Assembly: GCF_030388325.1 (NCBI RefSeq)
Contig: NZ_CP103794.1
Span: forward strand, 2,542,001 to 2,606,000
Reading direction: 5' to 3'
DNA from: Flavobacterium johnsoniae
Lineage (GTDB): Bacteria > Bacteroidota > Bacteroidia > Flavobacteriales > Flavobacteriaceae
DNA length: 64,000 nucleotides
Shown: in pieces, positions 4,249 to 63,809 of the stretch
How positions within the stretch are numbered: the stretch's first letter is position 1
Layout of the letters: the number at the start of each line of letters is the position of its first letter
Made by a program: the position numbers and the translations under genes
The notes under the pieces: generated by a model
What the model was told of the DNA's origin: nothing
Seen by the model: the letters and a program-made list of their open reading frames with translations, nothing else
Database searches by the model: none

Positions 4249-6882
4249 ATGGCAAAAAACTACATTAATTTATTAAGGTTTGTAATACTTTTTATTTTTT
4301 TAAACTTTTATTCTTCAAAAATTAATGCTCAATGCGCAGGTACAAATGGACAAAAAATAATTTGTGATATTGAGAATCCTGCTAACGAGTCTTTATCTTT
4401 ATTTTCATTATTAGGAGGCTCTCCAGTTCCAGGCGGAACTTGGTCTGATAATAATAATTTGAAAGGTTTAGATCCTGCAACTGGTATTTTACACCCTCAA
4501 CTTATTACTAAAGGAGGTGTTTACGAGTATACTTATACAGCTCCAAATACTGCAGGATGTACAAACAATAAAGCTGTCGTAACCATTACTATTGGTGCAT
4601 TTCAAGGTGTTGGTTCTCAGGCAACTGTTTGTAACGATAGTAATTATTTTAATCTTTTTACAGCATTTGACAGTAATTCGATGGGGCCACATTCAAATGG
4701 ACAATGGACAAATAGCGAAGGAAAAGTTGTGCCGCAATCTATTTATATAGGTGATATAGATAAAAAAACTACGCTACAATTTACATATACAGTGCCGCCC
4801 GTATTAGAATGTTCGCCAGCATCAAAATCTACAACAGTCTTAGTAACAGTTTTAAGAGCTCCTAAACCAGGTGAACCAGAACATTTAAGATTGTGTGGGA
4901 CAACAGATTTAGCTGGATATACCAATTTAAATTTGAATGACCGACTTGAGGGTGAAGATGGTGGAGGTATTTGGACTGGACCTGGAATTACGTCAAACAC
5001 AGATCATAATGTTAACCTTCAGGAATTATTTGATACTTCTGGCCCTGGAGAATACACCTTTAGATATACTGTTTTAGCTGTTCCTGATAATTATATTTGT
5101 AACAATAAGAGTAGCGACGTAATAGTGACTTTAGAAAAAAGACTTGATTTTACAGGCGCAAAAATTGTTGTTGAGAAAGATATTTGTGAATCTGATATTG
5201 CTACCGCAACTTATTCTGCAAAAATTACACAAGGACCAGATAGTATTCCTAACGGTCAATACGTTGTTAATTTTGATGTTACTGGAGCAAGTTCTGGATC
5301 TGGTTATGCAATAGCAGATTTTATAAATGGACAACTTAACTTTCCGATAAATTCGTCATATTTTCAGCGAGTAGGAAGTTACACTGTAAAGGTGACAAAT
5401 ATTTCTCCAAACTTTGGTTTGAATTTATGTACAAATATCTTTAATCCATTTTCAACAGTTTTAACTGTGCACCCATTGCCAAGATTAAACGGAGCTATAC
5501 TTACATCAACACCAACTTGTCAGAATAAACCGGGATTGATGCAATTAAATGCGCCTCAATTACTTGATGGAGATTATCGTATTACTTATAATATAAATGG
5601 AGACAATATAGCAACAGGAGAAACTGCTATTTTAAAAGCGGTAGGAGGGAAAGCAACTTTTGAAATTCCCGGTAGCTTGAATGTAAAGAGTGGCTTATCA
5701 GTCATTATAATTTTGAATATTGTAAACATTACCTACCCAACTCCGCAATGTGCAAGTCCCGCTAATGTGGCTGGAAATTTAACTATAAACCCGCTTCCAA
5801 ATGCTACGACTGTTAGTGTTGTTGCTAATAATTATTGTTTGAATGAACCAGTCCCTGTCGCTATTTCGGGATTAGGAAATTTAACCAATGCAAAAATTTC
5901 ATATCAGCTTTCAGATAGTAATGTTTCTACTGTTCAAACGATTACTCAAGCAGTAACAAACGGAAGAATAGATTTTGTAATTCCAGCGACAATGCTTCCG
6001 AATATTGGCAGTACCAAGATTACATTATTAAATCTAACTAATACAGTAACGACCTGCGATATTAATTTAGTTAATGTAGCAGATGATTTTGTAATATATC
6101 CGCTTCCTGCTGCTCCAAATGTAGACAATCAGCAATTCTGTAAAGTAGATGAGACTACAATCGCTAATCTAGAACCAATAGGAGCTCAATACAAATGGTA
6201 TAATTCTCCAACATCAACAACGCCTCTTGCGAGTACTTTATTATTGCAAAATGGTAATTATTATGTAAGGGAAACTTCTGCGAATGGCTGTAATTCAGAA
6301 GCTTCTGTGGTTGCTGTTATAATAAACGATTCTCCAGTTCCGGTTTTAAATTCAGATGGACAAAATTTCTGTGGCTTAAAAAATCCAACTATAGCTGATT
6401 TATCAAATAATACAAATGTGCCATCAACAGTAGTTTGGTATGATGCTCCAAATGATGGGAATTTATTATCTGCTTCAACTCGTTTAACCGAACAAGGCAG
6501 ATATTACGGATTCAATTTTCCAGATACAGGTTGTTTTTCTTCAGGATATATTGAAGTTACTGTAACGCTAACATCTTGTGATGATGTACCAAACGACTTT
6601 TTTGTGCCCGATGGTTTTTCTCCAAACGGAGATGGTACAAACGATTCATTTGTAATTAAGGATATTGAATTTTTATACCCTGATTATACTCTTGAAATTT
6701 ATAACAGATATGGAATCGAAATGTATAAAGGAGATAAAAATAAACTAGCGTGGGATGGGAAAAATTACGAAAAGAGCGGTATAGCAGGCGGAATTGCACC
6801 CAACGGAGTTTATTTTTATGTACTGCATTTCAATAAAGGCAACAAAAAGCCGCAGCAAGGCCGTCTTTATTTAAATCGATAA
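4249..6882 (+). CDS. Large surface protein with Ig-like repeats and a T9SS type B C-terminal domain
   Basis: 877 residues with a signal peptide (about 1-27, ending INAQ). Repeated beta-sandwich segments with recurrent cysteines and linkers such as FTYTVPP, VTVLRAP and LTVHPLP follow. The last roughly 90 residues are the gliding-motility-associated type B sorting domain: VPDGFSPNGDGTND, then LEIYNRYGIEMYKG, WDGK and PNGVYFYVLHF. This domain targets cargo to the type IX secretion system. The protein is probably exported to the cell surface as an adhesin-like filament or scaffold; binding partners cannot be read from sequence. The PorP/SprF gene starts 32 bases downstream and the OmpA gene follows, the usual three-gene layout for T9SS type B cargo. 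Confidence 0.88.
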   Translation: MAKNYINLLRFVILFIFLNFYSSKINAQCAGTNGQKIICDIENPANESLSLFSLLGGSPVPGGTWSDNNNLKGLDPATGILHPQLITKGGVYEYTYTAPNTAGCTNNKAVVTITIGAFQGVGSQATVCNDSNYFNLFTAFDSNSMGPHSNGQWTNSEGKVVPQSIYIGDIDKKTTLQFTYTVPPVLECSPASKSTTVLVTVLRAPKPGEPEHLRLCGTTDLAGYTNLNLNDRLEGEDGGGIWTGPGITSNTDHNVNLQELFDTSGPGEYTFRYTVLAVPDNYICNNKSSDVIVTLEKRLDFTGAKIVVEKDICESDIATATYSAKITQGPDSIPNGQYVVNFDVTGASSGSGYAIADFINGQLNFPINSSYFQRVGSYTVKVTNISPNFGLNLCTNIFNPFSTVLTVHPLPRLNGAILTSTPTCQNKPGLMQLNAPQLLDGDYRITYNINGDNIATGETAILKAVGGKATFEIPGSLNVKSGLSVIIILNIVNITYPTPQCASPANVAGNLTINPLPNATTVSVVANNYCLNEPVPVAISGLGNLTNAKISYQLSDSNVSTVQTITQAVTNGRIDFVIPATMLPNIGSTKITLLNLTNTVTTCDINLVNVADDFVIYPLPAAPNVDNQQFCKVDETTIANLEPIGAQYKWYNSPTSTTPLASTLLLQNGNYYVRETSANGCNSEASVVAVIINDSPVPVLNSDGQNFCGLKNPTIADLSNNTNVPSTVVWYDAPNDGNLLSASTRLTEQGRYYGFNFPDTGCFSSGYIEVTVTLTSCDDVPNDFFVPDGFSPNGDGTNDSFVIKDIEFLYPDYTLEIYNRYGIEMYKGDKNKLAWDGKNYEKSGIAGGIAPNGVYFYVLHFNKGNKKPQQGRLYLNR

Positions 6883-56991: not shown

Positions 56992-59900
56992 ATGGAACAA
57001 CAAATACCATATATTCCTAAAAATAAAGTAAGAATTGTAACTGCTGCTTCACTTTTTGACGGACATGACGCTGCCATTAATATTATGCGCCGTATTATCC
57101 AGTCAACAGGAGTTGAGGTAATTCATTTAGGTCACGACCGAAGTGTCGAAGAAGTGGTAAATACTGCCATTCAAGAAGATGCCAATGCAATTGCAATGAC
57201 TTCTTATCAAGGCGGACACAATGAATACTTTAAATATATGTATGATTTGCTTCGCGAAAAAGGAGCGGGGCATATTAAAATCTTCGGCGGCGGCGGCGGA
57301 GTAATTTTGCCAAGCGAAATTTCAGAATTACATGAATATGGAATTACAAGAATTTATTCTCCAGATGACGGTCGTTCTTTAGGACTTCAGGGAATGATTA
57401 ATGATTTGGTTCAGCAGTCAGATTTTCCTATTGGAGATAAATTGAATGGAGAAATAGATCATATCGAAAATAAAGTTCCAACAGCAATTGCAAGATTAAT
57501 CTCTGCAGCCGAGAATTTCCCTGAAATTGCAAAACCTGTTTTTGATAAAATTCATGAAAGTAATTCTGATTCTAAAATTCCAGTTTTAGGAATTACAGGA
57601 ACAGGTGGAGCAGGAAAATCTTCTTTAGTTGACGAATTGGTTCGCCGTTTTCTAGTTGATTTCCCAGAAAAGACAATCGGGTTAATTTCTGTCGATCCTT
57701 CGAAAAGAAAAACAGGAGGAGCACTTTTAGGAGACAGAATCCGTATGAATGCGATTAATAATCCTCGTGTTTATATGCGTTCGCTGGCTACACGTCAGTC
57801 GAATTTAGCTTTGTCTAAATATGTAGCCGAAGCAATTCAGGTTTTGAAAGCCGCAAAATACGATTTGATTATTCTCGAAACTTCAGGAATTGGTCAGTCT
57901 GATACCGAGATTATGGATCATTCAGACGTTTCTTTATATGTAATGACGCCAGAATTTGGTGCAGCGACACAATTGGAAAAAATTGACATGCTTGATTTTG
58001 CTGATTTGGTAGCTTTAAACAAATTTGATAAACGTGGAGCATTGGATGCGTTACGCGATGTAAAAAAACAATATCAAAGAAACCATAATCTTTGGGATAA
58101 AAATCCTGAGGAAATGCCAGTCTTCGGAACAATTGCTTCGCAGTTTAACGATCCGGGAATGAACACGCTGTACAAAGCGATTATGGATAAAGTGGTAGAA
58201 AAAACCGATTCTGACTTGAAATCGACTTTTGAAATCACTAAAGAAATGAGCGAGAAGATCTTCGTGATTCCGCCAGGAAGAACACGTTATTTATCTGAAA
58301 TCGCTGAGAATAACAGATCTTATGATGAAACAGCAATTGCACAGCAAAAAGTAGCACAGAAATTATACGGAATTTTCAAAACCATCGAATCGGTTTCAGG
58401 AAAAGTTCCTCAAATTACAAAAGCAGGAATAGACGATTCAACCGTTTTACCAAGCGGAATCGCAGAACACGACGAAAACAGAATCTTTTTAAATCTCTTG
58501 CTCAATCAGTTTGATAAAGTAAAAATGGACTTAGATCCATACAATTGGGAAATTATCTTGAATTGGGATGATAAAGTAGCGAAATACAAAAATCCCGTTT
58601 ATTCTTTTAAAGTGCGTGACAAAGAAATCAAGATTGCAACGCATTCTGAGAGTTTATCGCATTTGCAAATTCCGAAAATTGCTTTACCTAAATATGAAGG
58701 CTGGGGCGATATTCTGCGTTGGAATTTACAGGAAAACGTTCCTGGGGAATTTCCATTTGCTTCGGGATTATATCCGTTTAAGCGTGAAGGCGAAGATCCG
58801 TCAAGAATGTTTGCGGGTGAGGGCGGACCAGAAAGAACCAATAAACGTTTTCATTATGTAAGTGCGGGAATGCCAGCAAAGCGTCTTTCGACAGCTTTTG
58901 ACAGCGTTACTTTGTACGGAAACGATCCAGATTTACGTCCAGATATTTACGGAAAAATAGGAAATGCTGGAGTTTCAATCTGCTGTTTGGACGATGCTAA
59001 AAAACTATATTCAGGTTTTGATTTGGTTCATGCTTTAACATCTGTAAGTATGACGATTAATGGACCTGCACCAATGTTGTTAGGTTTCTTTATGAATGCG
59101 GCGATTGATCAGCAATGCGAATTGTACATCAAGGCAAATGAATTAGAAAAAGAAGTTGAAGCCAAAATCAACAAATTATATAAAAACAAAGGAATCGAAA
59201 GACCGAAATATCAAGGCGAACTTCCTGCTGGAAACAACGGTTTAGGATTAATGCTTTTGGGCGTAACCGGAGATCAGGTTTTGCCTTTGGAAGTTTATAA
59301 TGAAATAAAAGTAAAAACGTTAGCTCAAGTTCGTGGAACAGTTCAAGCCGATATTTTAAAAGAAGATCAGGCGCAGAATACTTGTATATTCTCAACTGAA
59401 TTTGCTTTGCGATTAATGGGTGACGTTCAGGAATATTTTATTACTAAAAACGTTCGTAATTTCTATTCGGTTTCGATTTCAGGATATCATATTGCTGAGG
59501 CAGGAGCAAATCCAATTACGCAATTGGCGTTTACGCTTTCTAATGGTTTCACTTACGTGGAATATTATTTGAGCCGTGGCATGAACATCAACGATTTTGG
59601 ACCAAATTTATCGTTCTTCTTCTCTAATGGAGTAGATCCAGAATATTCGGTTATTGGTCGTGTGGCGCGTAAAATTTGGGCAAAAGCCATGAAAAACAAA
59701 TACGGAGCCAACGAAAGAGCACAAATGCTGAAATATCATATTCAGACATCTGGACGTTCGTTGCACGCGCAGGAAATTGATTTCAACGATATTAGAACGA
59801 CTTTACAGGCTTTATACGCGATTTATGACAACTGTAATTCATTGCACACCAATGCTTACGACGAAGCGATTACAACGCCAACAGAAGAATCTGTACGTCG

Positions 59901-60432
59901 TGCGATGGCGATTCAGCTGATTATTAATAAAGAATTAGGTTTAGCGAAAAACGAAAACCCAATTCAGGGTTCTTTCATCATCGAAGAATTGACAGATTTA
60001 GTTGAAGCTGCGGTTCTTCAAGAATTCGACAGAATTACAGAAAGAGGAGGAGTTTTGGGCGCAATGGAAACGATGTACCAAAGATCTAAAATTCAGGAAG
60101 AAAGTTTGTATTATGAAACTTTAAAACACAATGGTGATTTCCCAATTGTTGGTGTAAATACTTTCCTGAGTTCAAAAGGTTCGCCAACGGTAATTCCGGC
60201 AGAAGTTATTCGAGCTACAGAAGAAGAAAAACAATATCAAATTACGATGTTGGATAATCTGCATCAATTTCACGAAGCAAAAGTAAACGAGCATTTAAAT
60301 AATTTACAACAAGCGGCTATTAAAAACGAAAATTTATTTGATCATTTAATGGAAGCTACAAAGGTTTGTTCTTTGGGGCAGATTACTTCGGCATTGTTTG
60401 AGGTTGGTGGGCAGTATAGAAGGAATATGTAA
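56992..60432 (+). CDS. icmF: Fused acyl-CoA mutase, IcmF type (isobutyryl-CoA mutase fused)
   Basis: 1146-residue adenosylcobalamin enzyme that joins all parts of a mutase in one chain. The B12-binding domain comes first ([16 protein letters not shown] with the base-on His25, and [10 protein letters not shown]). Next is a MeaB-like G-protein chaperone with P-loop GTGGAGKS (203-210), [11 protein letters not shown] and NKFD. Then the mutase barrel, with [40 protein letters not shown] and a C-terminus ending VGGQYRRNM. IcmF isomerises isobutyryl- and n-butyryl-CoA; related fusions act on pivalyl- or isovaleryl-CoA. The acyl specificity here is not proven. Single gene with its own terminator; it probably needs cobalamin salvage. 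Confidence 0.92.
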
Positions 60433-60452
60433 TTTTGTACTTATATTTATGA

Positions 60453-60485
60453 AAAAACCTCTCAGAATATGAGAGGTTTTTTTGT
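60453..60485 (+). terminator. Terminator after icmF
   Basis: AAACCTCTC and GAGAGGTTT around AGAATAT, followed by T7. Confidence 0.85.
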
Positions 60486-60514
60486 TAAACTATCTGAAAA
60501 ATGTTGGTTTTTAA

Positions 60515-61444
60515 TTATAATATAATTTGTTCAGGATTAGTTTTCCTTTCAAAAATATCAAGTAATTCGTATGTTGTTTTATCCGTTCCGGACATAAAAT
60601 GAGTATGTGAACGTCGCATATGAACAGTACAAGGATGATTTAAAAATGAAATAACAATATCTTCTGGGAGATTTGTATTTATCATTCCGGTAAATCTGTA
60701 ACCATCTTCACTAACAAACTCAAATTTTGCTGTTTCCAATAATGCGCCTCTTAATATTCCATCTTCAAATATTTCTTCATCTTCTTTGTTTGCTGCATTA
60801 ACTCTTACGAATCCTTTATGAATATCTTCTTCAGAAATACTCACTAGATTTGTCCCCGATACCATTTTGAGAATTGATTTTTCTTTATCAATATACTTTA
60901 AAAAATTTTTAAGATTATTTAAGTTTCTAGCAGGTGTAATTTCTAAAATTTCTTCAAATTCCTCATCACTAGTAGTTGAAGCTTCAACTAGTTCCATTAC
61001 TTGATGAATTGCAGTTGAAATATCTTCTTCTGCAAAAATATCAGATGGATCAATTTGAGATAGTTCTACGCCAAATGATCCTGTAGGTAATGCCGTTAAA
61101 TACAAATCTGAAATTTTAGAATTTTTTGATTTTCCTCTTTTACCAACTTTTCCATACCTTACTAAAGCAGTTTGTGTTTTAATAAGTTCTTGGAATGGTT
61201 TTAAAGCATCACTTATAAATTTTGTCTTAATGCCTTTTGAACCAATTACAGCTTTGCCACTAAAAAGAAGACTAACTTTAGGTTCATTTATGTCTTCTGG
61301 TAATTCATTTAATTGTTCGTTTAGCTCTTCCAGTTTTTTTTCTAAACTAAAAGACATGAGCGGATGATCCTTCACTAAAGAGAGTAAATGCTCAGTATCT
61401 ATTATCTGGGCTTTTAATTGATCTTTATCTACAGGTAAACTCAT
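60515..61444 (-). CDS. Uncharacterised partner of a DUF6932-type protein
   Basis: 309 residues, cytoplasmic. It opens with a helical hairpin (KAQIIDTEHLLSLVKDHPLM, SFSLEKKLEELNEQLNELPE), then a beta-rich core with VSLLFSGKAVIGSKGIKTKF and LYLTALPTGSFGVELSQID, an acidic helical part, and a C-terminal sandwich (GYRFTGMINTNLPEDIVISF). No named domain is known to me, but the same opening and LTALPxGSFGxELSQ core recur, in memory, next to DUF6932 proteins in other bacteria. Its ATG overlaps the stop of the upstream gene by four bases (ATGA), so the two are surely co-translated. Confidence 0.75.
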   Translation of the reverse strand: MSLPVDKDQLKAQIIDTEHLLSLVKDHPLMSFSLEKKLEELNEQLNELPEDINEPKVSLLFSGKAVIGSKGIKTKFISDALKPFQELIKTQTALVRYGKVGKRGKSKNSKISDLYLTALPTGSFGVELSQIDPSDIFAEEDISTAIHQVMELVEASTTSDEEFEEILEITPARNLNNLKNFLKYIDKEKSILKMVSGTNLVSISEEDIHKGFVRVNAANKEDEEIFEDGILRGALLETAKFEFVSEDGYRFTGMINTNLPEDIVISFLNHPCTVHMRRSHTHFMSGTDKTTYELLDIFERKTNPEQIIL

Positions 61445-62010
61445 TTTTTAAGTGATTCTAAATATTCCTTTGCTTGTTGGTCAATATCAGGAGTGTTTAA
61501 TTCTATACGCAACATTCCTTTCCAAATATTTAATCTATTATGAGAAAAAAGTTGAATCCAATATCTTGCCTGTTCAATTGTTGCATCTGGGGAATATCCA
61601 TAATCAATACCATAATGATCTAATTTATAAACAGTTTTAGAAAGTTTTGGATCCAAGAACTCATTAAAGTTAGTCAATATATTATTGAAAATACGATTAC
61701 GTTCATCTATTGGTATAAACATTTTATAAAATGTTATTAAGTCCAAATCTTTAGGAGGTCTACTTTCACTAGATTCAATATTTTCTGTAAAACTCCCATC
61801 TAACCATTGAAATCCATCAATTATACCGAAATTATTCATCTTTTCTCTAAATGCAATATAACCTTCAAGAATTTCAATTCTTTCTTTTGAGGTTGCAAAT
61901 TTAGTGCAGAATTCTAAAATGTTACATAAATATGGGCTTAAATCATTTCTATTAGTTGGATTACTAACGAAAGGAGGTATAACATTATTATGATTAAAAT
62001 TTGGAATCAT
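61441..62010 (-). CDS. DUF6932-type, nucleotidyltransferase-like protein
   Basis: 189 residues. The opening MIPNFNHNNVIPPFVSNP is the family mark. A nucleotidyltransferase-like core follows: GFQWLDGSFTENIE (Gly72-Ser73) and PPKDLDLITF (Asp88, Asp90), the GS and DxD arrangement of the pol-beta-type fold, then YSPDATIEQARYWIQLFSHN and WKGMLRIEL, which may give the third acidic residue (Glu). Enzymes of this fold move nucleotides onto proteins or RNA and include toxins of MNT-type pairs. It is the first gene of a two-gene unit with an ATGA overlap. A regulatory or defence role is inferred. Confidence 0.8.
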   Translation of the reverse strand: MIPNFNHNNVIPPFVSNPTNRNDLSPYLCNILEFCTKFATSKERIEILEGYIAFREKMNNFGIIDGFQWLDGSFTENIESSESRPPKDLDLITFYKMFIPIDERNRIFNNILTNFNEFLDPKLSKTVYKLDHYGIDYGYSPDATIEQARYWIQLFSHNRLNIWKGMLRIELNTPDIDQQAKEYLESLKK

Positions 62011-62207
62011 TGTTTATACAATAAGCTAAGTTTTTTTGTAAATATACTGATTATGAGTATTAATCCTAATTTTGTATTCATTTCAAGATTATATTGAGTA
62101 AAATTACGTAAGATAAATTCTATATTATTAAGCATTCCTTTTGTGAACGCAAAGTAACGCACGAGCGAGACGCTCGCACCAGCAAAAAAAATAAAAGCCC
62201 ATAAAGT

Positions 62208-62313
62208 TTGTCATTTCGACCGAAGGGAGAAATCACACTAGATACTAGACAAAGAAAGTCGCCAATCTTTGCAGAATTACTTGTGTGATTTCTCCCTTCG
62301 GTCGAAATGACAA
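62208..62313. repeat. Dispersed palindrome with TTGTCA and TGACAA ends
   Basis: TTGTCATTTCGACCGAAGGG and AGAAATCACAC form one arm, and their complements the other. A smaller palindrome (GAGCGAGACGCTC) lies just upstream at 62163-62175. Together they fill most of the 385-base gap 62011-62395. Confidence 0.8.
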
Positions 62314-62341
62314 TATCGCGGTAAAATTATAATGATAATAA

Positions 62342-62372
62342 AAAAGCAGCTTCTGGTACGAGCTGCTTTTCT
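62342..62372 (-). terminator. Terminator after the first small secreted-protein gene
   Basis: AAAAGCAGCT and AGCTGCTTTT around TCTGGTACG; on minus a T run follows. Confidence 0.8.
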
Positions 62373-62395
62373 AATTTTTGGGGGCAAAAAAGTGA

Positions 62396-62782
62396 TTAAC
62401 GACGGAATCCTGGGCTATGATTAGCAGAATTGTCTAATTTCACAGTTTTCACCTTCTTAGCAGCAACTTTAATTTCGTGTTTCGCAACTTTGTCGTTTGC
62501 TTTCAATTCTAGAACGTAAGTTCCAGCAGGAAAGTTTTCTAAACTAATTGTTTTTGAAACCTCTAACTTATCTGCTAAAGCGTCTCCCGCATAAAGTAAG
62601 TTGTGGTTCTCATCATAAATAGAGAAAGATGAACTCTCAACAGTGTCTAAAGTAAAGCTAACTACTTTTCCGTTTCCTGTTTTAATGTTTAATATATAGT
62701 CACCTTTTCCATCAATGGCATAGGTAAACACAGTCGCTAAAAAAAAGGCAGCAACTAAACCAGCTTTGGTAAATTTTGTCAT
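62396..62782 (-). CDS. Small secreted protein resembling a free T9SS C-terminal domain, paralogue 1
   Basis: 128 residues with a signal peptide (ending FTYAIDGKG). The mature part is one beta-sandwich: VVSFTLDTVESSSFSIYDEN, LLYAGDAL, ISLENFPAGTYVLELKANDK, VAKHEIKVAAKK. The SIYDxNxxLLY and LxxFPAGTYVLEL pattern is like the type A sorting domain of T9SS cargo, but with no cargo in front. The very basic end (KKVKTVKLDN, GFRR) is unusual. Paralogue of 63162-63566 on the same strand, 379 bases away. Confidence 0.75.
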   Translation of the reverse strand: MTKFTKAGLVAAFFLATVFTYAIDGKGDYILNIKTGNGKVVSFTLDTVESSSFSIYDENHNLLYAGDALADKLEVSKTISLENFPAGTYVLELKANDKVAKHEIKVAAKKVKTVKLDNSANHSPGFRR

Positions 62783-63066
62783 GTTTTTTTTAATTGTTAA
62801 TTACTAAATGTGGAACGCGTAAAACTACAAATACAAATTTAATTTTTAGCAAAAAAATAGCATTTTTAAACACTTAAGTTGCTGAATTAAAACTATTTCT
62901 ATTCTTTGTTTGAACTATGTACGTAAATACTGGGATTGCGGATTTATTTTTTTTAAAATTTTTTCGATTTTTTTTACGGCTTAAAAATCAGATAGTTGAA
63001 TTAATAAGAATATTTTTTCAGAAACCGATTTAGTGTAAAAACTACCTTTAATTTTAAGCACAAAAA

Positions 63067-63099
63067 AACAGCTCGTTAACCAACAAAGAGCTGTTCTTT
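63067..63099 (-). terminator. Terminator after the second small secreted-protein gene
   Basis: AACAGCTC and GAGCTGTT around GTTAACCAACAAA; on minus a T run follows. Nearly identical to the hairpin at 63955. The rest of the gap 62783-63066 shows nothing I recognise. Confidence 0.75.
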
Positions 63100-63161
63100 T
63101 GACATTAAAAGTTTACTTTTTAATTTTTTCTAACCTCATTTTATACCTTTAGTATAAAATC

Positions 63162-63566
63162 TTAACGAGCTGCGACATTTGTATTTTTTACAAAACCAGA
63201 TTTGTAAACTGATGAAACTGCATTTCTAGATAAAACAGTTGCTTCGTCAGTTACCTTTATTTCATATTTTGCTCTTTTTACATTGTCTTCAACTTCTAAG
63301 AAGTAAGTTCCTTCTGGAAATTCTTCTAAACTGAAAGTTCTCAAAATTCCTTCTTTGCCAGAAGCATTTTCAGAATAAATTAGCGTTCCGTCTTTGTCAT
63401 AAATTGCTAAACTGGCTTTCTGTACTTTGTTAAGAGCGAAAGTGATCAGTTTTCCATTAGCTTTCAATACGTGAAGATTAAACTCCGACGTTCCGTCAAT
63501 TGCGTATGTGCTTATTCCTGTGAAAAGCAACGCTGCTACTAAACTCATTTTTGCAATCTTTTTCAT
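63162..63566 (-). CDS. Small secreted protein resembling a free T9SS C-terminal domain, paralogue 2
   Basis: 134 residues with a signal peptide (ending GISTYAIDGTS). The mature part reads LITFALNKVQKASLAIYDKD, TLIYSENASGKEG, FSLEEFPEGTYFLEVEDNVK and RAKYEIKVTDEA. It shares the YAIDGxxxxxLxxxxxxGKxxxFxL opening and the LExFPxGTYxLE core with paralogue 1. A secreted surface or matrix component is the simplest guess; the function is unknown. Confidence 0.75.
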   Translation of the reverse strand: MKKIAKMSLVAALLFTGISTYAIDGTSEFNLHVLKANGKLITFALNKVQKASLAIYDKDGTLIYSENASGKEGILRTFSLEEFPEGTYFLEVEDNVKRAKYEIKVTDEATVLSRNAVSSVYKSGFVKNTNVAAR

Positions 63567-63809
63567 GGGACTTAATTTTTAAATTATTAGTTCTAATTCT
63601 CTGATGCTAAATTACTTATGATATACATGAAATAGCGCAACTGTGTTTTCCTATTTATATGCTATATTCTCATTTACGAAACCGTTATAGGTTAAAACTT
63701 GAATTATATTTAATGTTTTTGTTAATTCAGTTGTTATTTTTTAATGTTTCTCTTGATTTTAACTTTACAGTCGATTAAGAATTTATTTACATAATGGATT
63801 GAGGTTTTT

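Follow-up and report, generated by a model that had tools for sequence, protein, structure and literature searches.

A mobile DUF6932 gene pair of the PDC-M63 class in Flavobacterium johnsoniae as a candidate anti-phage module

What is the role of two small overlapping genes that stand by themselves in a 64,000-nucleotide stretch of the Flavobacterium johnsoniae chromosome (hereafter the window; bases 2542001-2606000 of a genome assembled as a single contig of 5.32 Mb, NZ_CP103794.1)? An earlier note, made from the sequence alone, had described them as a two-gene unit of a nucleotidyltransferase-like DUF6932 protein (here A) and a partner without known domain (B), and had proposed an undescribed system related to MNT/HEPN or AbiE, with a housekeeping modification pair as the alternative. 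Both reading frames are indeed present on the minus strand, and B starts inside the stop codon of A. Our results suggest that they form an anti-phage module, mobile and of the PDC-M63 type, in which A would be a nucleotidyltransferase, B the effector, and A would act on or arm B, a reading to which we give a probability of about 0.5. Genomic context speaks for a defence role, and the pair is a member of an already listed candidate class. The features of the two genes are as follows.

61441..62010, minus strand: gene A, nucleotidyltransferase-like DUF6932 protein of 189 residues (PADLOC PDC-M63A), from the open reading frame (ORF) call, PF22014, PDC-M63A, the AlphaFold2 (AF2) model and structural matches
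60515..61444, minus strand: gene B, partner of 309 residues (PADLOC PDC-M63B) with an N-terminal alpha/beta region and a C-terminal OB fold, from the ORF call, PDC-M63B and AF2
61441..61444, minus strand: ATGA overlap of the A stop (TGA) and the B start (ATG at 61444), from the ORF list
61792..61797, minus strand: Gly72-Ser73 of A, nucleotidyltransferase core (G in 89/89, S in 88/89 DUF6932 sequences)
61741..61749, minus strand: Asp88-Leu89-Asp90 (DxD) of A (D88 in 88/89, D90 in 88/89)
61618..61620, minus strand: Asp131 of A, candidate third acidic residue (82/89), in strand 130-136 of the AF2 model
61076..61081, minus strand: invariant Gly122-Ser123 loop of B (75/75 sequences; invariant in a 17-row alignment)
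60536..60790, minus strand: C-terminal OB-fold domain of B, residues 219-303, from the predicted structure

Predicted folds of the two proteins

Protein A matched DUF6932 (PF22014) with 92.3 bits (cut-off 27, E 4.7e-26) and the PADLOC model PDC-M63A over residues 34-172 (50.9 bits, E 3.8e-14). The superfamily motif of nucleotidyltransferases is hG[GS]...D-x-D, and this core was found in A and in 88-89 of the 89 DUF6932 sequences, at the very residues (Gly72-Ser73, Asp88 and Asp90) that had been picked out from the sequence. In addition, Asp131, which is position 130 in the 89-sequence alignment because one residue of the window's protein is dropped there, is nearly invariant in alignments A4/A5. 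The AF2 model of A reached a predicted local distance difference test (pLDDT) value of 96; when it was compared by VIA-align, about 46 of the 50 rows were, by title, nucleotidyltransferase-fold proteins (AadA, ANT, MNT, cGAS, CdnC/CdnD/CdnE and poly(A) polymerases), and Foldseek returned a putative nucleotidyltransferase as the top match and an MNT antitoxin as the third. Judging from this conservation, S73, D88 and D90 form the probable catalytic site of A, and we add them to the description of the class as targets for mutation.

For protein B, the absence of a known domain was borne out in Pfam (nothing over cut-off; two weak matches, E 0.07 and 0.17) and in NCBIfam (no match), and PDC-M63B of PADLOC was matched weakly and over residues 30-188 only (25.2 bits, E 2.1e-6). 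Its conserved residues are mostly Gly, Ser and Phe, with no obvious catalytic set. When the AF2 model of B (pLDDT 83) was searched against BFVD, the best match was a viral DUF6575 protein (E 4e-14) but with template-modelling (TM) scores of 0.38/0.32 and a root-mean-square deviation of 15.8, and at the sequence level the window's B does not match DUF6575 (PF20215) at E <= 1, nor did PF20215 give a match at E <= 10 when 18 genomes or records with the pair were scanned. DUF6575 is listed among the domains of 21 tested anti-phage systems in the available part of PMC9519451, which does not name the system that carries it. The OB-fold partner brings to the PDC-M63 class a distant structural connection with a domain of a tested defence system. 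Both proteins also have families in PHROGs (phrog_9194 for A and phrog_18731 for B), each annotated there as function-unknown.

Linkage, distribution and mobility

The linkage of the two genes is strict across Bacteroidota, Verrucomicrobia metagenome-assembled genomes and Pseudomonadota plasmids, and the adjacency across phyla on which the earlier note had made its proposal depend is thereby confirmed. When genome contigs were scanned with a profile of B, 27 loci came up (26 independent, L027 and L028 being near duplicates), with A directly upstream on the same strand in 27/27. Among viral contigs, where an earlier scan had found none, searches with either protein yielded 51 loci spread over 43 distinct contigs (30 clusters when B is grouped at 90% identity), and A is followed by B on 43/43. 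The viral loci fetched with A alone all carried the pair (37/37), by a search pattern that favoured the long form of A. Among plasmid records, A was found in six and B in three: the pair occurs in Pseudomonas, Methylobacterium, Bradyrhizobium and Paraburkholderia records (by annotation or profile matches), in a Rhizobium record A had no detected B next to it, and the sixth match for A, in Pigmentibacter, is partial.

From 91 loci with both genes, removal of 9 on the same contig or nearly duplicated (leaving 82) and of 4 with identical A gave a set of 78 pairs, which leaves out the window's own. A and B lie on the same strand in 78/78, and the overlap of four bases (-4) is the commonest arrangement (26/78), some of the larger overlaps being an artefact of taking the first start codon. 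The tree distances of A and B correlate with r 0.873 over these pairs, a value that 0 of 2000 permutations reached; this congruence is a sign of co-inheritance, not of binding.

The dependence between the two genes appears uneven. Among 296 genomes of the phylum, 21 yielded DUF6932 (17 over cut-off) and 10 yielded B, namely seven with A adjacent, one split (G306, with A near the end of one contig and B at the start of another) and two with weak, C-terminal-only partial matches (G371, G390). Conversely, where DUF6932 passed the cut-off, the widened profile placed B next to A in 8 of 17 genomes (including one divergent B, G337), and no B was found in 8 others (G405, G207, G335, G359, G391, G323, G162 and G355), of which G355 was covered by the narrower B profile only and G162 has its A in a stretch where the widened A profile missed it. 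Since A is found without B, while a full-length B apart from A was never encountered, the contig-end split of G306 being the sole unclear case, B seems to be the more dependent member. We add to the class description this evidence that B occurs with A.

Several variants of this layout were met on the way. DUF6932 was found in 7 of 150 relatives, including the window's own genome, which holds a single copy of gene A. In G051 and G066 (Flavobacterium), a short DUF6932 is followed by a divergent B, of a subfamily that lies 3' of a short DUF6932 in two genomes of the genus (L120 5379-6308 and L121 5463-6392) and in another genome of the phylum (L108 2535-3512). In G405 (L102 4594-6478), the short DUF6932 overlaps a different partner, a 483-residue protein with sub-threshold HTH_3 and Peptidase_M78 (IrrE) matches. 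Elsewhere it is followed by ORFs of 74-101 residues without Pfam match (L107 5396-5617, L111 4759-4992, L114 5537-5764 and L119 5398-5700), which are possible alternative partners.

The pair is also mobile, as the earlier idea of an accessory cassette had implied, and the window holds the corresponding insert.

60432..62328, no strand: insert with the pair and an inverted repeat, absent from a congener (empty site), by comparison with locus L049
62208..62313, no strand: dispersed inverted repeat upstream of A, inside the insert (arms of 48 nt, 85% complementary)

In the congener locus L049, both the pair and the inverted repeat are absent: window positions 60001-60431 and 62329-63760 match 4510-4940 and 4949-6389, which are 8 bases apart. 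At 28.9%, the guanine-plus-cytosine content of the pair is below that of the upstream gene (37.6%) and of the window (32.2%). Besides restriction genes, the commonest neighbour family is tyrosine-integrase-like and lies near the pair in four loci (L010, L016, L023 and L025). Moreover, one provirus pair matched 34 of 5426 E. coli genomes, with coverage of at least 80% in 26 and an identity of at least 99% in 26 and of 60-80% in 8.

Genomic contexts and competing explanations

Relatives of the pair adjoin immune genes and prophage repressors, and it is therefore a good, if unproven, antiviral candidate. The pair does occur in defence neighbourhoods: type I restriction genes (assigned via PADLOC scans and clustering) lie within about 8 kb of the pair in 5 of the 26 independent loci (L010, L023, L029, L031 and L033), against 0.16 expected in the 382 kb examined from the density of HsdM_N (146 matches in the 340 Mb of 99 genomes from the phylum; Poisson P(>=5) = 9e-7). 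This excess is flattered by the comparison, since accessory genes tend to cluster near other accessory genes anyway, since loci were typed by whole-gene models and the background by HsdM_N, and since a few loci came from other phyla. The gene orders are hsdM-hsdS-A-B-hsdR in L029 and hsdM-YhcG nuclease-small ORF-hsdS-A-B-hsdR in L031, L023 has a PrrC gene among its hsd genes, and in L009 a PD-T4-7-like gene lies about 45 bp 3' of B. In genome G251, outside the 26 loci, several candidate defence units form one run (L103 3638-9503, hsdS-A-B-Abi_C-AAA_13), in which AAA_13 is the PADLOC candidate PDC-S06 and is followed by a 127-residue frame that falls in the hsdR cluster, yet matches no PADLOC model at E 1e-12. 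The bulk scan gave one neighbour match each to PDC-S25 and PDC-S31 at loci it does not name; note that the PADLOC neighbour matches are the 25 commonest of 129 and of 235 models, and further defence neighbours may exist. As for plasmids, the Bradyrhizobium pair (L038 7471-11763) has multiubiquitin, ThiF and DUF6527 genes next to it on a conjugative plasmid, and in Paraburkholderia a run of helicase, DUF4391 and methyltransferase genes adjoins the pair.

In prophages, 14 of the 24 provirus clusters that offer at least 2 kb of upstream sequence have a CI/S24-type repressor ahead of the pair, on its strand and no more than 2 kb away, and the other 10 do not; ten genes upstream of provirus pairs gave, in Pfam, six Peptidase_S24, one HTH_3 only, one putAbiC and two without match, and in L122 a putAbiC gene directly precedes A. 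On the chromosome of E. coli strain ST540, the pair is 0.3 kb downstream of a LexA-family repressor and shares its strand; on the other side come Cro, CII and replication genes, and beyond lie gam, bet and exonuclease genes. Two more E. coli records show the same arrangement in near-identical copies (three of the 34 matched genomes were opened). In lambda, rexA and rexB follow cI, and RexB is a membrane protein. The pair occupies the same post-repressor slot on the same strand in lambdoid prophages, a comparison of genomic slots only, and, unlike RexB, A and B give no hint of a membrane segment (maximum 19-residue hydropathy 0.42 and 0.74). The available part of PMC11436027 attributes an exclusion role to rexA/rexB. 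The repressor-adjacent position, which we also add to the description of the class, suggests that the pair may act as an exclusion system of the lysogen.

Among known systems, PDC-M63, an unverified phage-defence candidate of PADLOC present in several phyla, is the closest: both of its models are matched in an adjacent two-gene operon of the same layout, PADLOC's own acceptance cut-off for B not being shown. The difference lies in the window's B, a divergent branch (25 bits, residues 30-188 only); each of six PDC-M63B models hit 2 to 4 of the 17 relatives of B that were scanned (best E 1.1e-127). AbiE, a two-gene module of phage defence with a nucleotidyltransferase (AbiEii toxin, AbiEi antitoxin), resembles the pair in that respect, and HEPN/MNT (HepT/MntA) in combining a small GS...DxD nucleotidyltransferase with a partner, MNT antitoxins being among the best Foldseek matches of A. 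Neither kinship was upheld. No AbiEi or AbiEii match was obtained for A or B at E <= 1 and no HEPN or MNT family match was found (Pfam, PADLOC and NCBIfam in both cases), and although 38 of 76 B sequences contain the HEPN motif R-x(4-6)-H, no His column exceeds 30%; B lacks a conserved HEPN histidine and carries a predicted OB fold.

The claim of an undescribed system was not supported either. According to the available part of PMC12409345, deletion of the prophage-borne PDC-M63AB in E. coli NILS69 left the infectivity of 10 phages unchanged, these being virulent double-stranded DNA phages per the authors' discussion; among systems cloned in K-12, PD-T4-3 and PD-T7-1 alone protected, and M63AB is not named there. 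The available part of PMC12409356 discards the PDC class of PADLOC among non-defence, unverified or unpublished labels. In the literature searched, which had preprints and most subscription journals outside its reach, no mechanism of PDC-M63 and no mention of DUF6932 were found, and PDC-M63 appears in PMC12409345 alone.

How would such a module work? Most likely, it would act by abortive infection or superinfection exclusion: A would transfer a nucleotide via its GS...DxD site, B would be the harmful effector whose OB fold binds nucleic acid or a ribonucleoprotein, and, in the most likely wiring, A would act on B, e.g., by nucleotidylating the invariant Gly122-Ser123 loop, or would make a signal needed by B, which would be held inactive or armed only upon phage infection. 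Control or arming of B by A is favoured because B, unlike A, was not found without its partner, because the Gly-Ser loop could be a modification site, and because a nucleotidyltransferase that modifies its partner has a precedent in MntA, which adenylylates HepT (PMC7641770, available part). More tentatively, this may even be a new biochemical type, in which A nucleotidylates or switches a non-HEPN, OB-fold, DUF6575-like B at the GS loop and phages undo or trigger the change, the pair serving as a rex-like prophage cassette and as a second line in type I restriction operons.

The roles could also be reversed, A being the harmful enzyme that puts nucleotides onto tRNA or protein and B a sensor or antitoxin whose OB fold reads phage nucleic acid. 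Nucleotidyltransferase toxins do exist (MenT- and AbiEii-type), only A has a recognisable catalytic core, and the conserved residues of B are not those of an obvious enzyme; yet the frequency of DUF6932 without a found B (8/17 genomes), when full-length B was never found away from A, makes this wiring rather doubtful. An addiction module that stabilises mobile elements, with no dedicated defence role, would fit the overlapping two-gene layout, the presence on plasmids and in proviruses, and the null phage test of the E. coli copy (PMC12409345, available part), but is unlikely, as placement in restriction operons and after repressors better suits host- or prophage-protective expression than segregational stability.

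Repressor adjacency in 14/24 provirus clusters would equally be expected if the pair served the lysogeny of its carrier phage (repressor control, induction) and host copies were relics. Host copies, however, are open frames with both proteins conserved, and some lie inside restriction operons (phage genes around host copies were not systematically sought), which makes this very improbable. Finally, a housekeeping pair modifying RNA or protein could explain the strong co-conservation of A and B, but is hardly credible in view of the sparse, patchy occurrence in the phylum (B 10/296, DUF6932 21/296), the empty site in the congener and the lack of any recurrent housekeeping or metabolic neighbour among the loci examined. 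Ten neighbours scanned with Pfam include several ordinary genes (TonB receptor, transcription-repair factor, urocanase, ABC ATPase, alpha-2-macroglobulin and GlnD).

Surroundings of the insert

As had been noticed from the sequence, the pair stands alone between a gene of 1146 residues (56992-60432), which is probably metabolic, and the dispersed palindrome, here the inverted repeat at 62208-62313. A 24-base piece of this repeat has four exact copies genome-wide (control zero), two of which are the arms themselves and the other two lie on contig 1 at 4288702 and 5303407. A hairpin with a T-run at 60458-60483 is probably part of the upstream gene, because ten other congener loci match the window on to 60482-60503. 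Two small tandem proteins of like layout, of 128 and 134 residues, are encoded on the minus strand at 62396-62782 and 63162-63566, with Por_Secre_tail and DUF3244 matches in Pfam, both sub-threshold.
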